From: Streptacidiphilus neutrinimicus | GTDB lineage: Bacteria; Actinomycetota; Actinomycetes; Streptomycetales; Streptomycetaceae | Direction of reading: 5' to 3' | DNA: 63,843 nucleotides | NCBI RefSeq assembly: GCF_000787815.1 | Contig: NZ_BBPO01000026.1 | Location: 1 to 63,843 of the forward strand | Shown: positions 3,150 through 30,490 of the stretch, piece by piece | Layout of the letters: every line of letters begins with the position of its first letter | Position numbering within the stretch: the first letter of the stretch is position 1 | Program-made: the position numbers and the translations under genes | The notes under the pieces: model-generated | Seen by the model: only the letters and a program-made list of their open reading frames with translations | What the model was told of the DNA's origin: nothing | Database searches by the model: none

Positions 3150-5507
3150 TTACTCCCCGGTGCCCGTCAGGTGCTCGGGCCGGACCGGTACCCGGTTCAG
3201 CGCGAGACCCGTGGCCTGGCGGATGGCCGCCACGACGGCGGGGGTGGACGAGAGGGTGGGCGCCTCGCCGACGCCGCGCAGCCCGTACGGGGCGTGCTCG
3301 TCGGCGAGTTCGAGCACCTCCACCGGCATCGGCGGGGTGTCCAGGATGGTCGGGATGAGGTAGTCGGTGAAGGACGGGTTCCTGACCTTGCCGTCCTTGA
3401 CGACGATCTCCTCCATGACCGCCAGGCCGAGCCCCTGGGTGGAGCCGCCCTGGATCTGGCCCACCACGGAGAGCGGGTTGAGCGCCTTGCCCACGTCCTG
3501 GGCGGCGGCCAGCTCGACCACCTTGACCAGGCCCAGCTCCACGTCCACGTCCACCACGGCGCGGTGGGCGCAGAAGGTGTACTGGACGTGGCCGAAGCCC
3601 TGCCCGGTCTCCTTGTCGAACGGGACGGTGGGACGGTGGTGGTGCTCACGGGTCAGGTCGATGGCGCTGTCGCCGAGCAGGTCCGCGATCGGGACCAGCG
3701 CGCCGGCGGAGGCGGAGACCACCTTGCCGCCGACCAGCGACAGGTCGTTGTACGTCCAGCCGTAGCGCTTGCGGCCGAGTGCCACCAGCTCGTTGCGGAC
3801 CGCCTCGCAGGCCAGCTTGACGGCGCCGCCGGTCATGTAGGTCTGCCGCGAGGCGGAGGTCGAACCGGCCGAGCCCACCTCGGTGTTGGCGGGGTGGATG
3901 GTGACCTGCTCGACCCCGAGCTCGGTGCGGGCGATCTGGCCGTGGACGGTGACGCCGCCCTGGCCGACCTCGGCCATGGCCGTGTGCACCATGGCGACCG
4001 GCTCGCCGCCGATGACCTCCAGGCGGACGCGGGCGGTCGAGTAGTCGTCGAAGCCCTCGGAGAAGCCGACGTTCTTGATGCCGACCGCGTAGCCGACGCC
4101 GCGCACGATGCCCTCGCCGTGCGAGGTGTTGGACAGCGCGCCGGGGATGTCGCGGACGTCCAGGTGCGTGGTGTCGAGCGCCGGCGGCAGCGGCAGTGCC
4201 TTGACGCGGCGCAGCAGGTCCGCGACCGGGGCCGGGGCGTCGATCTCCTGACCGGTCGGCATGATCGAGCCCTGCTCCACGGCATTGATCTGACGCAGCT
4301 CCACCGGGTCCATGCCGAGCTCGGCGGCCAGCTTGTCCATCTGCGCCTCGTAGGCGAAGCAGGCCTGGACCGCGCCGAAGCCGCGCATCGCGCCGCAGGA
4401 CGGGTTGTTGGAGTAGAGCGCGACGGCCAGCATGTTGACGTTCGGCACCTCGTAGGGGCCCATGCCCAGCGAGGCCGCGTTGCCGACGACCGCGGGGGAG
4501 GCGGAGGCGTAGGCGCCGCCGTCCAGCACGATCCGGGCGTCGCAGTAGACGAGCTTGCCGTCACGGGTCGCGCCGTGCTCGTAGGTCAGCTTCGCCGGGT
4601 GGCGGTGCACGTGCCCGAAGAAGGACTCCTCGCGGGAGTACACGATCTTGACGGGCTTGCCGGTGCGCTGCGCCAGCAGGCAGGCGTGGATCTGCATGGA
4701 CAGGTCCTCGCGACCGCCGAAGGCGCCGCCGACACCCGCGAGGGTGAGCCGGACCTTGTTCTCCGGCAGGCCCAGCACCGGCGCGATCTGTTCGCGGTCC
4801 ACGTGCAGCCACTGGGTGGCGATGTAGAGGTCGACGCCGCCGTCCTCGGCGGGCACCGCGAGGCCCGACTCCGGGCCGAGGAAGGCCTGGTCCTGCATGC
4901 CGACCACGTAGTCGCCCTTGATGACGACGTCCGCCATCGCGCGCACCTCGTCGGTGACGCCCTTGCCGGAGATCACCTTCTGCGAGTGGACGACGTTGCC
5001 GGAGGCGTGGCCCTTGTACTCGGCCGGCTCGTGCACGTACCCGTAGGTCTCCGGGTCGAGGCACTGCTCCTCGGTGGTGATGGTCGGCAGGATCTCGTAC
5101 TCGACCTTGATCTTGGCGAGCGCGCGGCGGGCCGTCTCCGGGTGGTCCGCGGCCACGATGGCGATGGCCTCGCCGTGGTAGCGGATCTTGCCCATGGCCA
5201 GCGCCGGCTGGTCCTTGATCTCCAGGCCGTAGAACTTCGAGCCCGGGATGTCGTCGTGGGTCATCACCGCCTGGACGCCGGGGTGCTTGACCGCCTCGGA
5301 GACGTCCACGGAGAGAATCCTGGCGTGGGCGTGCGGGGAACGCAGCGCCATGCCCCAGAGCATGTCCTCGTGCCACATGTCCGAGGAGTAGGCGAACTCG
5401 CCCTTGACCTTCAGGATGCCGTCGGGGCGCAGCGGCGAGCCGCCGATGCCGTCCGGATGGGCGGTGGTGATGCCCTGGAGGTTCTTCTCGGTGCGGATCG
5501 TGCTCAC
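3150..5507 (-). CDS. Xanthine dehydrogenase-type molybdopterin subunit
   Basis: This is the large catalytic subunit of a molybdenum hydroxylase (785 residues, GTG start at 5507 overlapping the 2Fe-2S gene by GTGA). The N-terminal part (GDPRPDGILKVKGEFAY-like start and RSPHAHARILSVD) is the Ald_Xan_dh_C domain; the rest is the molybdopterin-binding domain. Visible Mo-site motifs are GGAFGGREDLSMQ, CGAMRGFGAVQACFAYE and LRGVGEAPTLSS near residue 750, whose glutamate is the family's catalytic base. With the FAD and iron-sulfur subunits it would hydroxylate hypoxanthine and xanthine to urate. Substrate is inferred from the adjacent purine permease, XdhC and PucR; other hydroxylases of the family (nicotinate, aldehydes) cannot be excluded by sequence alone. 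Confidence 0.9.
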   Translation of the reverse strand: MSTIRTEKNLQGITTAHPDGIGGSPLRPDGILKVKGEFAYSSDMWHEDMLWGMALRSPHAHARILSVDVSEAVKHPGVQAVMTHDDIPGSKFYGLEIKDQPALAMGKIRYHGEAIAIVAADHPETARRALAKIKVEYEILPTITTEEQCLDPETYGYVHEPAEYKGHASGNVVHSQKVISGKGVTDEVRAMADVVIKGDYVVGMQDQAFLGPESGLAVPAEDGGVDLYIATQWLHVDREQIAPVLGLPENKVRLTLAGVGGAFGGREDLSMQIHACLLAQRTGKPVKIVYSREESFFGHVHRHPAKLTYEHGATRDGKLVYCDARIVLDGGAYASASPAVVGNAASLGMGPYEVPNVNMLAVALYSNNPSCGAMRGFGAVQACFAYEAQMDKLAAELGMDPVELRQINAVEQGSIMPTGQEIDAPAPVADLLRRVKALPLPPALDTTHLDVRDIPGALSNTSHGEGIVRGVGYAVGIKNVGFSEGFDDYSTARVRLEVIGGEPVAMVHTAMAEVGQGGVTVHGQIARTELGVEQVTIHPANTEVGSAGSTSASRQTYMTGGAVKLACEAVRNELVALGRKRYGWTYNDLSLVGGKVVSASAGALVPIADLLGDSAIDLTREHHHRPTVPFDKETGQGFGHVQYTFCAHRAVVDVDVELGLVKVVELAAAQDVGKALNPLSVVGQIQGGSTQGLGLAVMEEIVVKDGKVRNPSFTDYLIPTILDTPPMPVEVLELADEHAPYGLRGVGEAPTLSSTPAVVAAIRQATGLALNRVPVRPEHLTGTGE

Positions 5508-21149: not shown

Positions 21150-22995
21150 GCTGGACCGCCGGGGCGGCGGCCGCGTCCGCGTAGAGGGCCTCGATGTCGG
21201 CCGCGCAGGCGCGGGCGATGGCCCGGCGGCGCAGCTTCAGTGACGGCGTCAGCAGGCCCGCCTGCTCGGTGAACTCGATCGCGAGGATGCGGAAGGCGCG
21301 GACCGACTCGGCGCGCGAGACCGCCGTGTTGGCCGTCACCACCGCGCGCTGGAGCTCGGCGTGGAGCTCGGGGTCGGTCGCGGCCTCGATCGGGCTCAGC
21401 GGCGAGCGGCCGCGCACCCGCAGCCAGTGCTCGACGGCCTCGGGGTCGAGGGTGATCAGCGCGGCGATGAACGGGCGGTCGTCGCCGACGAGGACGCAGT
21501 GCGCCACCAGCGGGTGGGTGCGGATCCGGTCCTCCAGCACCACCGGCGAGACGCTCTTGCCGCCGCTGGTGACCAGGATCTCCTTCTTGCGCCCGGTGAT
21601 GTGCAGGTAGCCGAGCCGGTCCAGGTGGCCGAGGTCCCCGGTGGCCAGCCAGCCGCCGCGCAGCGTGCGGCCGGTGGACTCGGTGTCGTGCAGGTAGCCC
21701 TGGAAGACCTGGCCGCCGGAGATCCAGATCTCGCCGTCCTCGGCGATCAGCACGCTGGTGCCCGGGATCGGCTGGCCGACGGTGCCGAAGCGGACCCTCT
21801 CCTGCGGGTTGGCGGTCGCGGCGGCCGTGGTCTCGGTCAGGCCGTAGCCCTCCAGCACGGTGACGCCCGCGCCGCGGAAGAACAGCGCCTGTTCGCGGCT
21901 CATCGCCGAGCCGCCCGACATCGCGAAGCGCAGCCGTCCGCCCAGCACCGCGCGGACCTTGCCGTAGACGAGGGACTCGTAGAGCTGGTGCTGCATCCGC
22001 AGCGCGGCCGACGGACCCGGCCCCTCGTCGAAGGCCTGACGCTCCAGCGCCTCGGCGTAGCGCACCGCCACCTGGTACGCCTTCTCGAAGGCGGAGGCCC
22101 GTCCGGACCGCTCGGCGCGTTCTCTGGCTCTTCGGAGCATCTTCTCGAAGACGTACGGAACGGCGAGCAGGAAGGTCGGCCGGAACGCTGCGAGGGTGGG
22201 CAGCAGCTGGGTCGGCGAGGTGCTCGGCTCGTGCCCGAGCTTGATCCCGCCGCGCACGGCGGTCACCTGGATCATGCGCCCGAACACGTGGGCCAGCGGC
22301 AGGAAGAGCAGCGTCGCGGGCTGCTCGCCGCCGCGTCCGCTGAAGACCTCGTCGTAGCGGGCCAGCAGGTTGTCGCACTCGGCGAGGAAGTTGCCGTGGG
22401 TGATCACGCAGCCCTTGGGGCGGCCGGTGGTCCCCGAGGTGTAGATGACGGTCGCGACCGTCTCCGCGACGACGGCCTGCCGGTGCTGGTTCACGTACTC
22501 GTCCGGCATGCCCTGCCCGGCCATCGCCAGCTGGGCGAGGGCTCCGGAGTCCAGCTGCCAGATGTGCCGCAGCTCCTCCAGGGTGTCGCAGACCGAGCCG
22601 ACGGTCATGGCGTGGTCCTCGTGCTCCACCACGCAGGCCACCGCGCAGGTGTCGGCGAGGATCCAACGCAGCTGCTCGGCGGAGGAGGTCGGGTAGACCG
22701 GCACCGGCTGGGCGCCGAGCGACCAGAGGGCGTAGTCGAGGACGGTCCACTCGTAGCGGGTGCGGGACATCATGGCGACCCGGTCGCCGAAGCGGATTCC
22801 CTGCGCGAGCAGGCCCTTGGCGACGGCCAGCACCTCGTCGCGGAACTCCTCGGCGGTCACGTCCGCCCAGACGTCTCCCTGACGCCGGGCCAGGACGGCT
22901 TTCTGCGGTGTCTCCTCAGCGGTCCGGTAGACGGACTCGGCCAGCCCCTCCGCCTTGGGGCACCGCGCCAGCGCCGGAACACTGAACTCGCGCAC
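21139..22995 (-). CDS. Long-chain fatty acid-CoA ligase (AMP-forming)
   Basis: A 618-residue member of the ANL superfamily. The P-loop-like IYTSGTTGRPKGCVITHGNF near residue 187, EGYGLTETTAAAT near 385, GGWLATGDLGHLDRLGYLHI near 458 and TGRKKEILVTSGGKSVSP near 476 are the A3, A5, A7 and A8-A10 core motifs. It activates fatty acids to acyl-AMP and then acyl-CoA, resembling the FadD15-like actinobacterial group. It starts at GTG 22995, with GGGAGGG upstream. It lies tail to tail with the VOC gene and two genes from a secreted lipase that could supply its substrate. Confidence 0.92.
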   Translation of the reverse strand: MREFSVPALARCPKAEGLAESVYRTAEETPQKAVLARRQGDVWADVTAEEFRDEVLAVAKGLLAQGIRFGDRVAMMSRTRYEWTVLDYALWSLGAQPVPVYPTSSAEQLRWILADTCAVACVVEHEDHAMTVGSVCDTLEELRHIWQLDSGALAQLAMAGQGMPDEYVNQHRQAVVAETVATVIYTSGTTGRPKGCVITHGNFLAECDNLLARYDEVFSGRGGEQPATLLFLPLAHVFGRMIQVTAVRGGIKLGHEPSTSPTQLLPTLAAFRPTFLLAVPYVFEKMLRRARERAERSGRASAFEKAYQVAVRYAEALERQAFDEGPGPSAALRMQHQLYESLVYGKVRAVLGGRLRFAMSGGSAMSREQALFFRGAGVTVLEGYGLTETTAAATANPQERVRFGTVGQPIPGTSVLIAEDGEIWISGGQVFQGYLHDTESTGRTLRGGWLATGDLGHLDRLGYLHITGRKKEILVTSGGKSVSPVVLEDRIRTHPLVAHCVLVGDDRPFIAALITLDPEAVEHWLRVRGRSPLSPIEAATDPELHAELQRAVVTANTAVSRAESVRAFRILAIEFTEQAGLLTPSLKLRRRAIARACAADIEALYADAAAAPAVQLTT

Positions 22996-23251
22996 GTGGT
23001 CTTTTCCCTCCCTGCCCCCCGAGGCGCGGGCGGCCGAACTCGAAAGTTACCTCTCGGAAACAGAGAGTGGCCAGAGTGCGTCCACCTGCTTCACCGGACT
23101 TCCACCCCGCGCGACCACCCTCTGCAACTTGCGGAGATATGTGCCGGTTGTTCGGTTTCGGTGCGCGAGATGTGATGACATGTGGCGAAGATCAGACGAA
23201 ATATGCGTTCGATGAGGCGGGCGACGCTCGAACTGGTACATGCGCAAGTAG

Positions 23252-23257
23252 TAGAGT
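23252..23257 (+). promoter_or_regulatory. -10 element upstream of the conservon
   Basis: TAGAGT lies 34 bases before ATG 23292, with a weak TCGAAC 18 bases upstream. The 296-base gap 22996-23291 also contains several AT-richer patches but no recognisable gene. Confidence 0.4.
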
Positions 23258-23291
23258 CGCGGCGTTTCTGCCGGGCCCACAAGAGGAACCC

Positions 23292-25967
23292 ATGCGACTC
23301 CGCCGCAGATCCATCCGCGCGAAGATCACCGCGTTGCTGCTGGTACCGCTCGTCGCGTTGACCGGCCTCTGGGCCTACACCTCGGTGGTGTCCGCTACCC
23401 AGGTGTGGGGCCTGCTCAAGGTCGTCGACGACTACAAGTGGTACGGCGCACCCGCGGACGCCCTCTCCCGGGCCCTCCAGGACGAGCGCCGCGCCGCGGT
23501 CTCCTTCGCCGCGACCAGGATCGACGGCAGGACCGTGCCGGCCTCGGTGCTGGCGCCGCTCCAGGCCGCGGAGGCCAGGACGGACGCCGCCGCGGCAATG
23601 TTCGAGGCGCACGCGAACGACGCCGGCCATCGCAAGGACCTCAACGCCCCGTCCCAGGACGCGGTGCGGACGATCCTCGACCAGGTGAACGCGCTCAAGG
23701 TGGAGCGCACCGCGGTCCAGCAGCACTACCTGGACTGGTTCAGCGTGTACGTCTGGTACACGAACATCCAGGACCCCTTCTTCGACCTGCGCCTGGGCCT
23801 GAGCGACATCCCCGCCGGCGACCTCGCCCGCACCGCGCAGAACCTCGTCGAGCTGGTCCGCGCCCGCGAGTACATCTCCCGTGAGGACGCCCTGGAGGAG
23901 GGCACGCACCTCCAGCCCGACCTCAGTGCCGTCCAGTTCCAGGAGATGCTCTCCACCTCCGCCACCGAGCAGCTCCTGCTGCGCGTCCACATCACCCAGC
24001 TGCCCCCGCAGCTGGCCTCCCTCTACCAGGACTTCGCCGACAGCTCCGACTACTCCGAGCTCAACGCCCTGGAGGACTACTCCGGGCAGCTCGGCGAGTC
24101 CCAGCACATCAGCCGGCTCAACTACGCGCAGTGGCGCGAGACCGCCGACCGGGTGCTGAACCGGCTCAGCGACCTCGACCAGCAGTCCGCCACCATCGCC
24201 GGCCAGCAGGGGCGCGACTACGCGGTCGGCGTCCTGTGGCGCGACGGCATCGCCGGCGCGCTCGGTCTGCTCGCGGTCGTCGCGACGGTCTTCATCTCGG
24301 TGCGCATCGGCCGCCGCCTGGTGCGCGAGCTGGTCCAGCTGCGCAACGGCGCCTTCGACCTGGCCGGAGTGCGCCTGCCCTCCGTCATGCGGCGGCTGCG
24401 CGAGGGCGAGAAGGTCGACGTCGCCGTCGAGGCCCCGCCGCTCACCGCGCCCGACGAGCCCGGCCACGGACCGACCGCGCCCGACGAACTGGCCCAGCTC
24501 GGCCGCGCCTTCAACGCCGTGCAGCGCGCCGCCATCGAGGCCGCCGTCGAGCAGGCCGAACTGCGCCGCGGCGTCTCCGCCGTCTTCGTCAACCTCGCCC
24601 GCCGCAGCCAGGCGCTGCTGCATCGCCAGCTCTCCCTCCTCGACGAGATGGAGCGGCGCGCCGAGGACCCGGAGGAGCTGGAGGACCTGTTCCGGCTCGA
24701 CCACCTGACCACCCGTATGCGCCGCCACGCCGAGGGCCTGATCATCCTCTCCGGCTCGGCGCCCGGCCGCTCCTGGCGGCGGCCCGTGCGCATCCTCGAC
24801 GTGGTCCGCGCCGGCGTCGGCGAGATCGAGGACTACGCCCGCGTCCGCGTCCACCGGATGCCGCCCGTCGCCGTCGTCGGCGGCGCCGTCTCCGACCTCG
24901 TCCACCTGCTGGCCGAACTGGTCGAGAACGCCACCGTGTTCTCGCCCCCGAGCACCCAGGTGCGGATCGTCGGCGAGGAGGTCGCGCACGGTTTCGTGCT
25001 CGAGATCGACGACCGCGGCCTCGGTATGGGCGACGAGGCGCTGTCCGCCGCCAACGACCGTCTCGCCACCGGAGGCGACTTCGACCTCGGCGACACCGAC
25101 CGCCTCGGGCTCTTCGTCATCAGCCGCCTGGCCGCCCGTCACCAGATCCGGGTCTCGCTGCGGCGCTCCCCCTACGGCGGCACCACGGCCGTGGTGCTGC
25201 TGCCGCACGAGCTGCTGACCCCGGCCGCGCCGCGCCCGGGCGACGCCACCGGGACCGGCACCGCGTCCGTGTCCGGCGCGGAGTCCGGCGCCGCCTCGGG
25301 CGAGTACGCGCTGCCCGCCTCGCTCACCCGCGGACTGCGCGACGCCCCGCCGGAGACCGGCCGCGCCTCCGGCAGCCGCCTCGCGTCCACCCCGCGCGCC
25401 TATCCGGGCCGCCTGGGCGGACCGCGCCCGCACACCCCCGACGAGTCCACCGGCGGCGGCCTGCCGCGCCGGCGTCCCAACCCCGCTCTGCAAGCGGTGC
25501 GTCAGGAGGTCCTGGCGGACGAGGTGCTGGTCGAGGAGGTGCTCAACGTCGAGGTCCTCGACGAGGGAGGCCTCGGCGCCCTCACGACGACGGGGCCGGT
25601 CCCCGGCGTCGAGGTGATCGACGCCGAGGTGCTGAGCGAGGAGGACCTCGCCGTCGAGCTGCTGCCCGCCGTCGAGGACAGCCGGGTCGGGCACCCGGAG
25701 CGGACCGCCCACGGCGGCGCCGGAACCCTCCCGCCCGCGCTGCCGCGCCGGGTGCGGCAGGCGAACCTGGCGCCGCAACTGCGTCGCAGCGGGGACGCCC
25801 CCGCGCAGCCGGAGACGCCGCGCGCGGATCGCACGCCCGAGCAGGCGCGCGCGACCTTCGCCTCGTTCCAGCGCGGCCTGCAGCGCGGGCGCACCCAGCC
25901 CACCCACCCCACCGATGACCACTCCGGCGAGAACACAGATCCGACTGCGGAAGGAACCACCCGATGA
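23292..25967 (+). CDS. cvnA: Conservon sensor histidine kinase-like protein (CvnA)
   Basis: An 891-residue membrane sensor. Membrane helix 1 (residues 10-33), an extracytoplasmic NIT-type nitrate/nitrite-sensing-like domain (40-310), helix 2 (318-338), a HAMP-like linker, a DHLTTRMRRHAEGLIILS helix, and an HATPase domain (LLAELVENATVFSPP, IDDRGLGMGDEAL, DTDRLGLFVISRLAARH). The long C-terminal tail (650-891) is Pro/Ala-rich with repeated acidic EVL segments, as in conservon kinases. CvnA proteins recruit a roadblock protein, DUF742 protein and small GTPase at the membrane, forming an assembly likened to a eukaryotic G-protein receptor. The ribosome site AGAGGAA precedes ATG 23292. The stop overlaps the next gene (ATGA). 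Confidence 0.9.
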   Translation: MRLRRRSIRAKITALLLVPLVALTGLWAYTSVVSATQVWGLLKVVDDYKWYGAPADALSRALQDERRAAVSFAATRIDGRTVPASVLAPLQAAEARTDAAAAMFEAHANDAGHRKDLNAPSQDAVRTILDQVNALKVERTAVQQHYLDWFSVYVWYTNIQDPFFDLRLGLSDIPAGDLARTAQNLVELVRAREYISREDALEEGTHLQPDLSAVQFQEMLSTSATEQLLLRVHITQLPPQLASLYQDFADSSDYSELNALEDYSGQLGESQHISRLNYAQWRETADRVLNRLSDLDQQSATIAGQQGRDYAVGVLWRDGIAGALGLLAVVATVFISVRIGRRLVRELVQLRNGAFDLAGVRLPSVMRRLREGEKVDVAVEAPPLTAPDEPGHGPTAPDELAQLGRAFNAVQRAAIEAAVEQAELRRGVSAVFVNLARRSQALLHRQLSLLDEMERRAEDPEELEDLFRLDHLTTRMRRHAEGLIILSGSAPGRSWRRPVRILDVVRAGVGEIEDYARVRVHRMPPVAVVGGAVSDLVHLLAELVENATVFSPPSTQVRIVGEEVAHGFVLEIDDRGLGMGDEALSAANDRLATGGDFDLGDTDRLGLFVISRLAARHQIRVSLRRSPYGGTTAVVLLPHELLTPAAPRPGDATGTGTASVSGAESGAASGEYALPASLTRGLRDAPPETGRASGSRLASTPRAYPGRLGGPRPHTPDESTGGGLPRRRPNPALQAVRQEVLADEVLVEEVLNVEVLDEGGLGALTTTGPVPGVEVIDAEVLSEEDLAVELLPAVEDSRVGHPERTAHGGAGTLPPALPRRVRQANLAPQLRRSGDAPAQPETPRADRTPEQARATFASFQRGLQRGRTQPTHPTDDHSGENTDPTAEGTTR

Positions 25968-26371
25968 CAGCCACGACGAAGCCGTCCGGCGACCTCAACT
26001 GGCTTCTGGACGACATGGTCCGGCGGGTGCCCGCGATCCGGCACGCCGTGGTGCTGTCCAGCGACGGTCTCGCCACCGGCGCCTCCGGCGAGCTGGCCCG
26101 GGAGGACACCGAGCACCTCGCGGCCGTCGCCTCCGGCTTCCACAGCCTCGCCAAGGGCGCCAGCCGCCACTTCCAGGCCGGGGACGTCCGGCAGACCATG
26201 GTCGAGCTCGACCAGGCCTTCCTCTTCGTCACCGCGGCCGGGGACGGCAGCTGCCTCGCCGTGCTCAGCGAGTCGGACGCCGACGTCGGCCTGATCGCCT
26301 ACGAGATGGCCCTGTTGGTCCGCCGCGTCGGCGAACACCTCGGCACGGACCCGCGGGGCTCGGCGGGGTGA
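25964..26371 (+). CDS. cvnB: Roadblock/LC7 domain protein (CvnB)
   Basis: A 135-residue roadblock/LC7 protein, second member of the conservon. DLNWLLDDMVRRVPAIRHAV, VLSSDGLATGASGELAR and MVELDQAFLFVTAAGDGSCL are the characteristic segments of these actinomycete dimers. Roadblock proteins bind small GTPases and can act as activating or scaffold factors. ATG 25964 overlaps the cvnA stop by 4 bases; the stop is within the start region of the DUF742 gene. Confidence 0.93.
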   Translation: MTATTKPSGDLNWLLDDMVRRVPAIRHAVVLSSDGLATGASGELAREDTEHLAAVASGFHSLAKGASRHFQAGDVRQTMVELDQAFLFVTAAGDGSCLAVLSESDADVGLIAYEMALLVRRVGEHLGTDPRGSAG

Positions 26372-26376
26372 GACCG

Positions 26377-26820
26377 ATGTCGGGGGAGCAGGACGGCTTC
26401 GACGGCGTCGACGGTTTCGAGGAGGAGCCGGACGACGCCCTCGCCGACCACTACGCCGAGGAGGCGGAACTCGGCCAGCTGGTGCGCCCGTACACCCTCA
26501 CCCGCGGGCGCACCCGCCACGCCGTCTCCGAGGCGTTCGATCTGGTCACCCAGATCAGCCCCGCGCCGCGGGAGTCCGGCGGCGCGGACGAGGAGGCCCA
26601 GGACCCCGAGCACGAGGCGATCCTGGAGCTGGTGCGCGTGCGCACGCTCTCCGTCGCCGAGCTCGCCGCCGATCTCGACCTGCCGCTCGGGGTGGTCAGG
26701 ATCCTTCTCGGCGACCTGTTCGAGGCCGAGTTGATCGAGGTCACCCGACCCGTCCCGGCGGCGGAACTGCCGCACGTCGACATCCTGCGCGAGGTGATCC
26801 GGGGCCTGCGCGCGCTCTGA
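26377..26820 (+). CDS. cvnC: DUF742 protein (CvnC)
   Basis: A DUF742 protein of 147 residues, third member of the conservon. The acidic N-terminus precedes the domain core LVRPYTLTRGRTR, LVRVRTLSVAELAADLDLPL, GVVRILLGDLFEAELIEV and HVDILREVIRGLRAL, which looks like a winged-helix fold. ATG 26377 has GGGGTGAG 5 bases upstream; GTG 26368, overlapping the cvnB stop, is an alternative that adds three residues. In other conservons the GTPase gene follows immediately; here two other genes intervene. Confidence 0.9.
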   Translation: MSGEQDGFDGVDGFEEEPDDALADHYAEEAELGQLVRPYTLTRGRTRHAVSEAFDLVTQISPAPRESGGADEEAQDPEHEAILELVRVRTLSVAELAADLDLPLGVVRILLGDLFEAELIEVTRPVPAAELPHVDILREVIRGLRAL

Positions 26821-26935
26821 GACGCGCGCACGCCAGCGGATCATCTGTTCGCCTCCAAGCCGACGGGCCTCCCCCGGACGGGTCATTCGCGTGCCCTCGC
26901 GGGCTGGTCGGCCGGGCGCTGGGCAGCTTCGCGGC

Positions 26936-27322
26936 ATGGAGCCACGGATCTGTCCGCCACCCCCCGTCCCGGTCGTCCCGCCGGTGCGGCCGGGAGGCCC
27001 GCACACGCCGCCACAGCCGCCGCCCTTCCCGCCCGCGCTGCGCTGCGCGTACGTTCATCCGCGTCCGCCCGCGCACCCGCACCCGCGCCCGCTCCTGCGT
27101 GCGCCGGCGGCGCGGCCCACCCCCGTGCACGTCCAGCCGCCACCTCCGGCCCCCGTCCACACGCACGCCGCCACCGCAGTGCCGCGCCCGCTGCCGGCCC
27201 CCGAGGCGGCCCCTCAGCCCGCCGCTCCCGAGGCCGCGTTCGTCTACGTGGCCATCACCATCCCGGCCCTGGTCGCCGCAGGAACCGGCGCCTTCCACCA
27301 ACTCTTCGGAAGGGGACGCTGA
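26936..27322 (+). CDS. Proline-rich protein with a C-terminal membrane segment
   Basis: A 128-residue protein of unknown function. About 95 residues are Pro, His, Ala and Arg-rich low-complexity sequence (repeats such as PPPPVPVVPP and HPRPPAHPHPRP), followed by one hydrophobic segment AFVYVAITIPALVAAGTGAF and a short basic end. This is the layout of a tail-anchored protein with a flexible cytoplasmic part. No Shine-Dalgarno is evident before ATG 26936, so the start is uncertain. It directly abuts the DUF4239 gene and lies inside the conservon. Confidence 0.6.
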   Translation: MEPRICPPPPVPVVPPVRPGGPHTPPQPPPFPPALRCAYVHPRPPAHPHPRPLLRAPAARPTPVHVQPPPPAPVHTHAATAVPRPLPAPEAAPQPAAPEAAFVYVAITIPALVAAGTGAFHQLFGRGR

Positions 27323-28060
27323 GTGGACCTCGGCTTCCTGTTCGCCGCGATCGTCGGCCTGTGCCTCGCGGTGTTCGTCCTCGCCCTCTTCGGCCGCACC
27401 GCCCGCTCGCGCGAGGGCAGCTTCTCCGGCAGCGCCCTCGCCTTCCTCGGCTCGGCCTCCCTGTCCTCCTTCGTGCTCATCGCCGCCTTCCTCATCGCGG
27501 GCTCCTGGTCCAACCTCAACACCGCGCGCGGCCACACCCTCGACGAGGCCCGCGCCCTCAACGCCGCGTACACGGACGCCGACGCGCGCACCCGCCCGCT
27601 GCTGCACGCCTACGTGACCTCCGTGATCCACGACGAGTGGGCCGCCATGGCCAAGGGCCAGGCGAGCCCGGTGTCCTGGCAGCGGCTCGACGCCGTCCGC
27701 GCCCAGGTCCTCGCGGAACCGGCCTCCGCCGACCGCGAGCAGGAGCTCACCGACCTGGGCGGCGTCTACACCACCCGGCAGGTCCGCCTGGCCGACTCCT
27801 CGGCGGCGATGCCGTGGCCGCTGTATCCCGCACTGGTCTGCACGGGACTGCTGGTGCTCCTGTACGCCCCGATCGCGGGCCTGACCTTCCACCGGCGCGA
27901 GGCGGTGGCCCTGGGCCTGGTCGGGGCGGTGGTCGGCTTCGGGGTCTGGATGGTGCTGCACATGACCCACCCGTACACCGGCCCGGTCCACGTGACACCG
28001 GTGGCCTACACACAATCCCTGCAACGCTTCACGCAGTTGGCGGGCACGGCGCCGAAGTAG
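27323..28060 (+). CDS. DUF4239 (bestrophin-like) membrane protein
   Basis: A 245-residue membrane protein beginning with GTG directly after the previous stop (AAGGGGA upstream). Two N-terminal helices (residues 4-24 and 38-60), a soluble central part with LNTARGHTLDEARALNAAYT, and two C-terminal helices (170-220) match DUF4239, a bestrophin-like family. The central helical region with YVTSVIHDEWAAMAKG is typical. Function in bacteria is not established; channel-like roles are guessed from fold. Its place between cvnC and the GTPase gene suggests a membrane partner of the conservon. Confidence 0.8.
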   Translation: MDLGFLFAAIVGLCLAVFVLALFGRTARSREGSFSGSALAFLGSASLSSFVLIAAFLIAGSWSNLNTARGHTLDEARALNAAYTDADARTRPLLHAYVTSVIHDEWAAMAKGQASPVSWQRLDAVRAQVLAEPASADREQELTDLGGVYTTRQVRLADSSAAMPWPLYPALVCTGLLVLLYAPIAGLTFHRREAVALGLVGAVVGFGVWMVLHMTHPYTGPVHVTPVAYTQSLQRFTQLAGTAPK

Positions 28061-28115
28061 CGGGGCGGTGCGCGCGAGATCGGGGGTGCGGTTCCGCTCC
28101 CCGCCGGATATTGCC

Positions 28116-28121
28116 TATGAT
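28116..28121 (+). promoter_or_regulatory. -10 box for a leaderless GTPase transcript
   Basis: TATGAT, an excellent -10 match, lies 6 bases before GTG 28128; no Shine-Dalgarno is present. A weak TTCCGC lies 18 bases further upstream. The conservon GTPase therefore seems to have its own promoter. Confidence 0.55.
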
Positions 28122-28127
28122 GCGCCC

Positions 28128-28709
28128 GTGATGCGTGGCACGAAGGGGGACGGCTCGTTCGTCGCCGTCAAGATCCTGGTCGCGGGCGGCTTCGGCGCGG
28201 GCAAGACGACGCTGGTCGGGGCCGTCAGTGAGATCCGCCCGTTGCGGACGGAGGAACGACTGAGCGCGGCGGGGCGACCCGTCGACGACACGCACGGGGT
28301 GGAGGGCAAGACCACCACGACCGTCGCCATGGACTTCGGCCGGATCGACATCCGGGAGGGCCTGGCGGTCTACCTCTTCGGCACCCCCGGCCAGGACCGG
28401 TTCTGGTTCGTCTGGGACGAGCTGGCCCAGGGGGCGCTCGGCGCCGTGGTGCTCGCCGACACCCGGCGGCTGGAGGACTGCTTCCCGTCCGTCGACTACT
28501 TCGAACGGCGCGGCATCCCGTTCGTCGTGGCCGTCAACTGCTTCGAGGGAGCCGAGCTCTACCCGGCGGACCAGGTGCGCGACGCGCTCGACCTGGGCGG
28601 GCACGTGCCGGTCGTGCTCTGTGACGCGCGGGAGCGGGACTCGGTCAAGGAGGTCCTCGTGCATGTGGTCGAACTGGCGCTGACCGAGCGGGAGTCCGTC
28701 TACAGCTGA
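28128..28709 (+). CDS. cvnD: Conservon small GTPase (CvnD)
   Basis: A 193-residue Ras-like GTP-binding protein. G1/P-loop AGGFGAGKTTLVG near residue 19, switch region TEERLSAAGRPVDDT, GVEGKTTTTVAMDFGRI, G3-like LFGTPGQDRFWFVWDEL, and a G4-like FVVAVNCFEGA in place of NKxD, as usual for this family. CvnD GTPases interact with the roadblock protein at the membrane kinase. GTG 28128 or the adjacent ATG 28131 may be used. It is separated from cvnABC by two genes but shares their direction. Confidence 0.9.
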   Translation: MMRGTKGDGSFVAVKILVAGGFGAGKTTLVGAVSEIRPLRTEERLSAAGRPVDDTHGVEGKTTTTVAMDFGRIDIREGLAVYLFGTPGQDRFWFVWDELAQGALGAVVLADTRRLEDCFPSVDYFERRGIPFVVAVNCFEGAELYPADQVRDALDLGGHVPVVLCDARERDSVKEVLVHVVELALTERESVYS

Positions 28710-28726
28710 GCAAGGCGCTCGGGGCG

Positions 28727-30490
28727 TCAGCGGTGCGGCGAGAGCCGGAGCCGCGCGTTGGTGACGGTCATCGGCGGGTCCGTCAGGACCGTCAGCAGCG
28801 TCGGCCCGGCCGGGTTGGGCGCCAGCGGGGCGCCGACGCGGCGCAGCACGTAGACGGCGCTGCCGTGCGCCGGGACGGCGGCGGGGCCGGAGACGACCCG
28901 CCAGCCGGTGTCGGGCCAGGCGCTGACGCTGACGGCGAAGGCGGGCCTGAGCGGCGCCGCGCCGGTGTTGCGCACGGTCGCGGTGATCCGGTCGAGGCCG
29001 GTGAGGCGGGGGGAGTGCTTGGCCTGCGGGCCGGAGGCGGTCGCGGCGAGCCGCAGCGGCGACGGCGTGAGGACGGCCGTCAGCAGCAGGGCGAGGGCGG
29101 GCGCCGCCAGCAGCGGCGGCAGGGCGAGGCGCACCGCCCGGGAACGCAGCGGGGCGGGCCGCCAGGTCCAGGCGGCGGCGAACAGGGCGCGTTCGTTGCA
29201 GGCCAGGGCGACCAGCCAGAGCGGGACCAGCAGCACGAAGTACGTCTCGGTGGAGCGCGTGGAGAGGAAGAAGGCGGGCCAGGGCAGCAGCGCCAGCGCG
29301 GGACCCAGCCGCGCCGGCCAGAGCACCAGCGCCACGAGCGTGGCCAGCAGCGCCGCGGCCGCCGCGGTCGAGTAGAGACCGACGGCGCCGCTGCCGGAGG
29401 TGATCCAGAGACTGATGTCGATCGGGCCGAGCCCCTGCGGCGACGCGTGCTGCGTCAGCACGGTCAGCACGCCCGGCAGCCAGGCGCGGCGGTCGACGAC
29501 TACGAACGGCAGGTTGACCAGCAGGAAGACCCCTGCGGTCAGGGCGGCGTACCGGCCCGTCACCAGGAGGGCGGGGCGCCGGCGGCCGAACTCGCCGCGC
29601 CGCAGCAGCAGCACGCCGAGCAGGAGGAACACCGTCAGGAACCAAGCGAGTTGGTGCGCGGCGTCGGCCACGCCGAGACAGCAGGCCGAGACGACGCCCT
29701 GCCGGCCCAGCCGTCCCCCGGCGCCGATCCGGCTCCAGCCCGCCAGCACGACCACGAGGAAGGGCAGTGTCAGGAACACCGGGTAGCCGTCGCGGGCGTA
29801 CAGGAACGTCCAGCTCATCGCGAACACCAGCACCGTCGCGCCGGGCCGCAGCGCGGGCGGCAGCAGCCGGAACATCAGCGCGGCCGCGACGACCAGCGCG
29901 GCCAGGCACCACAAGCCGGTCACCGGCAGCCACGCCGGCGCCGGGAGCAGCCCGTGCGCGGTGAACGGCGCGGTCAGCAGCACGCTCAGCGGCGGGTAGC
30001 CGAAGGTGTCCGCGGTGCCGCCGTTCATCAGCGGCGTCATGCCGACGTGGAACACCCGCACCGTGTCGGTGAAGTGGACGCCGTAGACGTGTCCGCCGGC
30101 CACGAGCGACCGTGCCGCCATGGTCACCAGCGCGGCCTCGTCGTCGTGGTACGTCGGTACGCGGGTCCCGGTCGCGTAGGCCGTATGCAGCCCGAGCCGG
30201 ACGACGGCCGCGAGGAGCACCGCCACGTCCAGCCGGCGCAGCCCGCGGTCGTCGCGGGCCACGGCGACCAGCAGGGCGAGCACCAGCAGTGCCCCGTACA
30301 GCAGACCGAAGCCGACGCTGAGGTAGACACGCGAGACCGCCTCGTCGCGCAGCAGGGTCGGCAGTCCTTGGAACAGCGCGACCACAGCGAGGAGGGACAG
30401 GACGCGATGGGCGAGCGTCGGCGAGACCGCCGCCGACCGCACCGGCGTGGAACGGTCCGCGTGGCGGTCCGTCAGGGCACGAGTCGTCAT
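28727..30490 (-). CDS. Polytopic GT-C-like glycosyltransferase or related membrane protein
   Basis: A 587-residue protein with about 10-11 hydrophobic helices. An acidic motif TYHDDEAALV in the first outer loop (about residue 115) recalls the Asp motif of lipid-linked GT-C glycosyltransferases, and the helix arrangement resembles the GT87 mannosyltransferases of actinobacteria. The last 100 residues form an extracytoplasmic beta-rich domain (ITATVRNTGAAPLRPAFAVS, GWRVVSGPAAVPAHG). A polyprenyl-sugar donor would be expected, but substrate and even activity are inference. ATG 30490 has no clear ribosome site; TACGGT 10 bases upstream suggests a very short leader. Confidence 0.6.
   Translation of the reverse strand: MTTRALTDRHADRSTPVRSAAVSPTLAHRVLSLLAVVALFQGLPTLLRDEAVSRVYLSVGFGLLYGALLVLALLVAVARDDRGLRRLDVAVLLAAVVRLGLHTAYATGTRVPTYHDDEAALVTMAARSLVAGGHVYGVHFTDTVRVFHVGMTPLMNGGTADTFGYPPLSVLLTAPFTAHGLLPAPAWLPVTGLWCLAALVVAAALMFRLLPPALRPGATVLVFAMSWTFLYARDGYPVFLTLPFLVVVLAGWSRIGAGGRLGRQGVVSACCLGVADAAHQLAWFLTVFLLLGVLLLRRGEFGRRRPALLVTGRYAALTAGVFLLVNLPFVVVDRRAWLPGVLTVLTQHASPQGLGPIDISLWITSGSGAVGLYSTAAAAALLATLVALVLWPARLGPALALLPWPAFFLSTRSTETYFVLLVPLWLVALACNERALFAAAWTWRPAPLRSRAVRLALPPLLAAPALALLLTAVLTPSPLRLAATASGPQAKHSPRLTGLDRITATVRNTGAAPLRPAFAVSVSAWPDTGWRVVSGPAAVPAHGSAVYVLRRVGAPLAPNPAGPTLLTVLTDPPMTVTNARLRLSPHR

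Follow-up and report, generated by a model that had tools for sequence, protein, structure and literature searches.

A Streptacidiphilus conservon split by two membrane-protein genes, with a candidate leaderless start for its GTPase gene

The split conservon and its recurrence in the genus

The window analyzed here, a 63,843-nucleotide (nt) contig of Streptacidiphilus neutrinimicus (NZ_BBPO01000026.1), contains a conservon (cvnA-D) whose GTPase gene, cvnD, is parted from cvnC by a proline-rich open reading frame (ORF) and a DUF4239 gene. All six genes lie on the forward strand in the order cvnA-cvnB-cvnC-Pro-rich-DUF4239-cvnD, and Pfam matches confirmed the four core conservon families in order, as an earlier note made from the sequence alone had described. 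The first gene, cvnA (23292..25967), encodes a histidine-kinase-like sensor with NIT (PF08376, E = 1.3e-25) and HATPase_c (PF02518, E = 1.7e-10) domains, and hydropathy placed the NIT domain between two predicted transmembrane (TM) segments. It is followed by cvnB (25964..26371; Roadblock/LC7, PF03259, E = 7.5e-26) and cvnC (26377..26820; DUF742, PF05331, E = 3.8e-33). The note had these three genes joined by overlaps, which holds for cvnA and cvnB (4 nt) but not for cvnB and cvnC, which are separated by 5 nt.

Contiguity is then broken by 1307 nt and two genes between the cvnC stop and the GTG at 28128. The Pro-rich ORF (26936..27322), for which we picked the ATG conserved in a four-genome DNA alignment, encodes 128 amino acids (aa) with 30.5% proline, no Pfam match and one C-terminal hydrophobic segment at about residues 102-120. 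Its TGA stop is followed with zero spacing by the GTG start of the DUF4239 gene (27323..28060), so that the two genes abut exactly as claimed. The DUF4239 protein has four predicted TM segments and matches PF14023 (Bestrophin-like) at E = 2e-27, with 96.7 bits against a cut-off of 32; the Pfam scan of the inserted proteins gave no match to a P450 or GAF accessory. Last comes cvnD (28128 for the GTG or 28131 for the ATG, to 28709), encoding a Ras-like small GTPase (PF03029, E = 2.2e-32). A -10-like box, TATGAT, lies at 28116..28121, six nt before the GTG at 28128, and is a candidate for leaderless expression of cvnD.

A search of related genomes found the split order in all 14 Streptacidiphilus genomes, ruling out that it is unique to this one. 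Each carries a DUF4239 orthologue (71-100% identity; mean column identity, 79%) with cvnD downstream of it, in locus L012 across two frames. In 13 of the 14, cvnC lies upstream of the Pro-rich/DUF4239 pair, and the 14th contig stops within the Pro-rich gene. The order cvnABC-Pro-rich-DUF4239-cvnD is a trait of the genus. That an assembly artefact produced the arrangement is scarcely conceivable, being refuted by its recurrence in 14 genomes, three of them in one contig. In the L012/L046 genome (completeness 76%), cvnB and cvnD each match in two frames and cvnA is in pieces (L046), frame breaks that are perhaps sequencing errors. In S. carbonis (L045), an opposite-strand amine-oxidase gene (3422-5326) separates cvnC from the Pro-rich gene, and the gap from cvnC to the pair is similar in size in L051.

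We also compared the spacing of cvnB and cvnD across 61 genomes of the family, which yielded 129 cvnD rows, 34 of them without a cvnB row, and at least 150 cvnB rows. Among the matches listed, there were 95 cvnB-cvnD pairs, 74 spaced 405-961 nt and 21 spaced at least 1754 nt. One of the wide pairs was an artefact joining two tandem conservons in genome G009; the other 20, again among the matches listed, comprised 10 of the 22 Streptacidiphilus pairs and 10 of the 73 from the rest of the family. The 10 in Streptacidiphilus all represented this conservon, each from a different one of the 10 genomes sampled. Within S. neutrinimicus itself there are six other cvnD loci, with 51-75% identity to the CvnD of the split conservon, and no gene-sized gap between cvnC and cvnD was found at any of them (34-94 nt between matches). 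Beyond the split conservon, a long ORF occupies 28727-30490 on the opposite strand.

In a tree of concatenated CvnB, CvnC and CvnD that takes in 5 of the 14 split loci, the split conservon groups with uninterrupted, overlapping conservons of G015 and of g11 and g14 genomes (supports of 90/88 and 91/85, under the tool's starred level). Because these neighbors are uninterrupted and overlapping, the split looks derived.

A lost internal start and a putative promoter for cvnD

The junction was read base by base in 46 other conservon loci of our own selection, ten of them chosen as interrupted and one without cvnC in view. In 24 of the 46, cvnD could start within cvnC, exactly 20 nt before the latter ends. 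The usual cvnC tail is ATC-AAT-GGN, and the ATG spanning its last two codons is the cvnD start; this type includes the loci closest to the split conservon on the tree (L112, L091-L093 and L108-L111). Judging from the overlap, this arrangement should couple synthesis of the GTPase to that of CvnC. In the split conservon, the codon before the glycine is CGG, CAG or GCG, and the ATG is absent; in the window, the corresponding 20 nt are 26801..26820 on the forward strand, and the triplet there is GGG. The internal start was lost in all 10 readable loci among L003-L016 (the tail of L012 was unreadable and L007 lacked cvnC), as well as in L045 and L051, which come from the genomes of L014 and L010, respectively.

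A different signal stands before cvnD. All 14 Streptacidiphilus genomes carry a TANNNT box (TATGAT, TAGGAT, TAAGAT or TAGGGT) 6 or 7 nt before the GTG, while the distance from box to DUF4239 stop ranges from 4 to 65 nt. Such a box precedes only 4 of the 3257 ATG/GTG triplets in the window and was found at none of the 46 comparison loci. With the box in 14 of 14 genomes versus 0 of 46 comparison loci, and with the internal start lost, independent, leaderless expression of cvnD is well supported by sequence, and we regard this as the strongest result of the analysis. Both the box and the independent control of the GTPase that the earlier note had proposed thus gained support from the wider comparison. 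The other way to read the locus is as one long operon from cvnA to cvnD in which TATGAT is incidental. Six co-directional genes with short gaps fit that picture, as does a sigma-70 scan of 22900-28900, which found no full promoter; in the same region there is one terminator-like site, against an average of 1.1 in shuffled sequences. However, an incidental box would hardly have kept its spacing to cvnD in all 14 genomes while its distance to the DUF4239 stop varied, nor is it expected given how rarely such boxes precede start triplets in the window, and we consider the single operon improbable.

Breakage at this junction is also seen in a separate conservon clade (20 tree rows: L080-L090, L094-L099 and L117-L119), where ten genomes outside Streptacidiphilus carry unrelated genes between cvnC and cvnD (L080-L089). 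The cargo is a glycosyl hydrolase 3 protein in L083, L084 and L088, a hydantoinase/oxoprolinase fusion in L085-L087, a protein of 325 to 329 aa with no Pfam family at 0.001 in L080-L082 (L082 having many more genes besides), and in L089 a set of several genes, one of which encodes a DUF5753/HTH_31 regulator. All ten interrupted loci have lost the internal start from the cvnC tail, and at their cvnD a start resembling that of the overlap survives as a copy, preceded by a ribosome-binding stretch similar to GGAGAAGAGATC. Because the overlapping loci L095 and L098 sit among interrupted ones on the tree, the junction seems to have been broken more than once in this clade. Two near relatives of the oxoprolinase-cargo loci, L096 and L097, have neither cargo nor overlap and may mark places from which an insert has been lost. 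Cargo at the cvnC-cvnD junction does not by itself indicate a conservon function.

The Pro-rich/DUF4239 pair away from conservons

Immediately before DUF4239, 14/14 Streptacidiphilus genomes have an ORF whose product carries a hydrophobic segment at its C terminus, and so do 14/14 loci (L064-L077) from 13 g14 (Kitasatospora-type) genomes and G015. At 11 of these latter loci the preceding ORF has at least 25% proline, and the remainder are short pieces of 44-48 aa. It is also present in the more distant L017 (16% proline), L078 and L079; among 12 remote DUF4239 loci (L149-L160), it was clear only in L159. No cvn genes were found in the 1.5-kb flanks of any of the 14 loci L064-L077, nor in the 6-kb flanks of L047-L050, whose genomes are shared with four of them. 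Since the pair occurs without conservon neighbors in Kitasatospora-type genomes, it has no general tie to conservons, and, to judge from these sequences, it is probably older than its conservon linkage.

DUF4239 as a general conservon partner was rejected: none of 45 other loci from the DUF4239 search had a cvn match, these loci mostly being 1.5-kb flanks with a few places counted twice, and the class-level search from which some of them came having yielded 12 of 296 genomes. DUF4239 genes occur in 116 of 121 genomes of the family, so chance conservon neighbors are to be expected; in G034, about 6 kb separate one DUF4239 gene from a conservon, a proximity that we took as chance.

These comparisons bear on whether the pair is a true conservon accessory, that is, a channel or receptor controlled by or feeding CvnD, in the manner of CvnE and CvnF elsewhere. 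The linkage has been retained in all 14 genomes, the pair has no box of its own at most loci, and the DUF4239 model resembles bestrophins, all of which such a role would explain. Yet the pair exists without a conservon in Kitasatospora-type genomes, and in S. carbonis the opposite-strand amine-oxidase gene separates it from cvnC. Nine Streptacidiphilus and four Kitasatospora-type DUF4239 proteins are set apart by just three fixed differences, whereas 134 columns do not vary in either group, giving no sign of a new interface. Moreover, CvnA here keeps its sensor domain, unlike most accessory-partnered CvnA proteins described in PMC13343842. We therefore consider an accessory role possible but doubtful. 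The comparisons did not bear out the earlier suggestion of an insert that supplies the conservon with a channel-like component or scaffold, given the conservon-free pairs and the unrelated genes found at the junction elsewhere.

What the two proteins are can be said less firmly. Bestrophins are pentameric ion channels, and the description of DUF4239 as bestrophin-like received moderate structural support: the predicted model somewhat resembles bestrophin channels (the Klebsiella homologue and VCCN1) at about 10% identity, with a model confidence of 62.5 and no Foldseek match at an E value of 0.001 or below. Many of the structures matched are titled "membrane protein" with a mutation and appear to come from the same Klebsiella series. 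Sequence searches of the PDB with DUF4239 (as a profile) and with CvnD gave no match. A count of positive residues sets the large DUF4239 loop outside, in conflict with bestrophin topology, which would place it inside. As for the Pro-rich protein, the C-terminal hydrophobic segment expected of a tail-anchored protein is there, but the short tail beyond it has two arginines and no acid. With a tail compatible with either orientation, the protein may be something other than a cytoplasmic tail-anchored scaffold. A bacterial G-protein-gated ion channel, with a bestrophin-fold DUF4239 and its Pro-rich partner gated by CvnD that is itself supplied independently from a leaderless start, strikes us as a long shot, and less likely than a free-standing module.

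A third protein, of about 366 aa and with multiple TM segments, is encoded downstream of the pair within 1.5 kb at 10 of the 14 loci L064-L077. In L048, from the same genome as L068, it lies about 3.5 kb from the pair, and the 13.5 kb surrounding the module in G015 did not contain it. All 14 Streptacidiphilus genomes have a relative of it apart from the split conservon (8 at 72-73% identity and 6 at 47-50%). In L147 (2349-6741), from one Streptacidiphilus genome, a 50% relative adjoins, and is divergent from, a different conservon. This protein had no Pfam or NCBIfam match, its predicted structure had a pLDDT of 37, and the label "channel-like" would be no more than an interpretation of its hydropathy and of a single short stretch.

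A model for the split and what it means

Taking as its basis the order, its recurrence, the lost start, the conserved box and the independent existence of the module, all read from the sequence, we favor a model that we consider fairly probable: on the stem leading to Streptacidiphilus, a ready-made membrane module settled in a junction open to breakage, with the GTPase gene restarted from its own promoter. The direction of change in this model is inferred, as are leaderless transcription, uncoupled GTPase dosage and the lack of a direct partnership. A pre-existing module of the Pro-rich protein and the bestrophin-like DUF4239 would have entered between cvnC and cvnD in the Streptacidiphilus ancestor, and the split would have removed the cvnD start in the cvnC tail, undoing the overlap coupling. 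By acquiring a leaderless promoter, with the -10 box 6-7 nt before the GTG, cvnD would then be expressed independently, and the level of CvnD need not track those of CvnB and CvnC. CvnA, with its NIT sensor, would act together with CvnB and CvnC in the way of other conservons, as reported for Cvn8 and Cvn9, and the Pro-rich/DUF4239 pair would probably keep a membrane role of its own, independent of the conservon.

Several observations weigh against this model. Six uninterrupted loci with small gaps (L096, L097, L099, L100, L102 and L119) have likewise lost the internal start, which makes its loss a mark of uncoupling at large and not of this insert, and L113 and L118 retain an ATG there that we did not regard as a start cvnD could use. 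The 46 loci used for comparison were hand-picked, ten of them for being interrupted. No leaderless-type box precedes the Pro-rich ORF in any of the 13 of 14 loci tested (those matching the search motif, which L016 did not; L007 has only 158 nt upstream), and in 10 of the 13 the sequence before DUF4239, up to 900 nt of it, lacks any TANNNT; the module may therefore be carried on the cvnABC transcript. Finally, retention of the arrangement throughout the genus could mean selection for the linkage.

The locus resembles known conservons in having the four core families in order, and differs from them in that two membrane-protein genes part cvnD from cvnC and that cvnD has, by its sequence, a leaderless start of its own. 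It shares with the CvnE and CvnF systems the presence of extra genes associated with a conservon. According to PMC13343842, however, the genes for CvnE (a P450) and CvnF (a GAF protein) come after cvnA-D and occur overwhelmingly with a CvnA lacking a sensory domain, whereas here the extra genes precede cvnD, one of them encodes a multi-TM protein and CvnA has an NIT domain. Our literature search found no paper joining Streptacidiphilus with conservons or DUF4239 with Streptomyces, and a search on "bestrophin-like" and DUF4239 gave no DUF4239 paper among the matches listed.

These comparisons indicate repeated breakage of the cvnC-cvnD overlap that many conservons have, and warn against taking every gene within a conservon for a partner of it. 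A GTPase leaving its partners' control would be recognizable by a sequence signature in which the internal start codon is lost and a new start signal is gained. Comparison of split and unsplit conservons makes the question of GTPase dosage testable in these poorly understood signaling systems.

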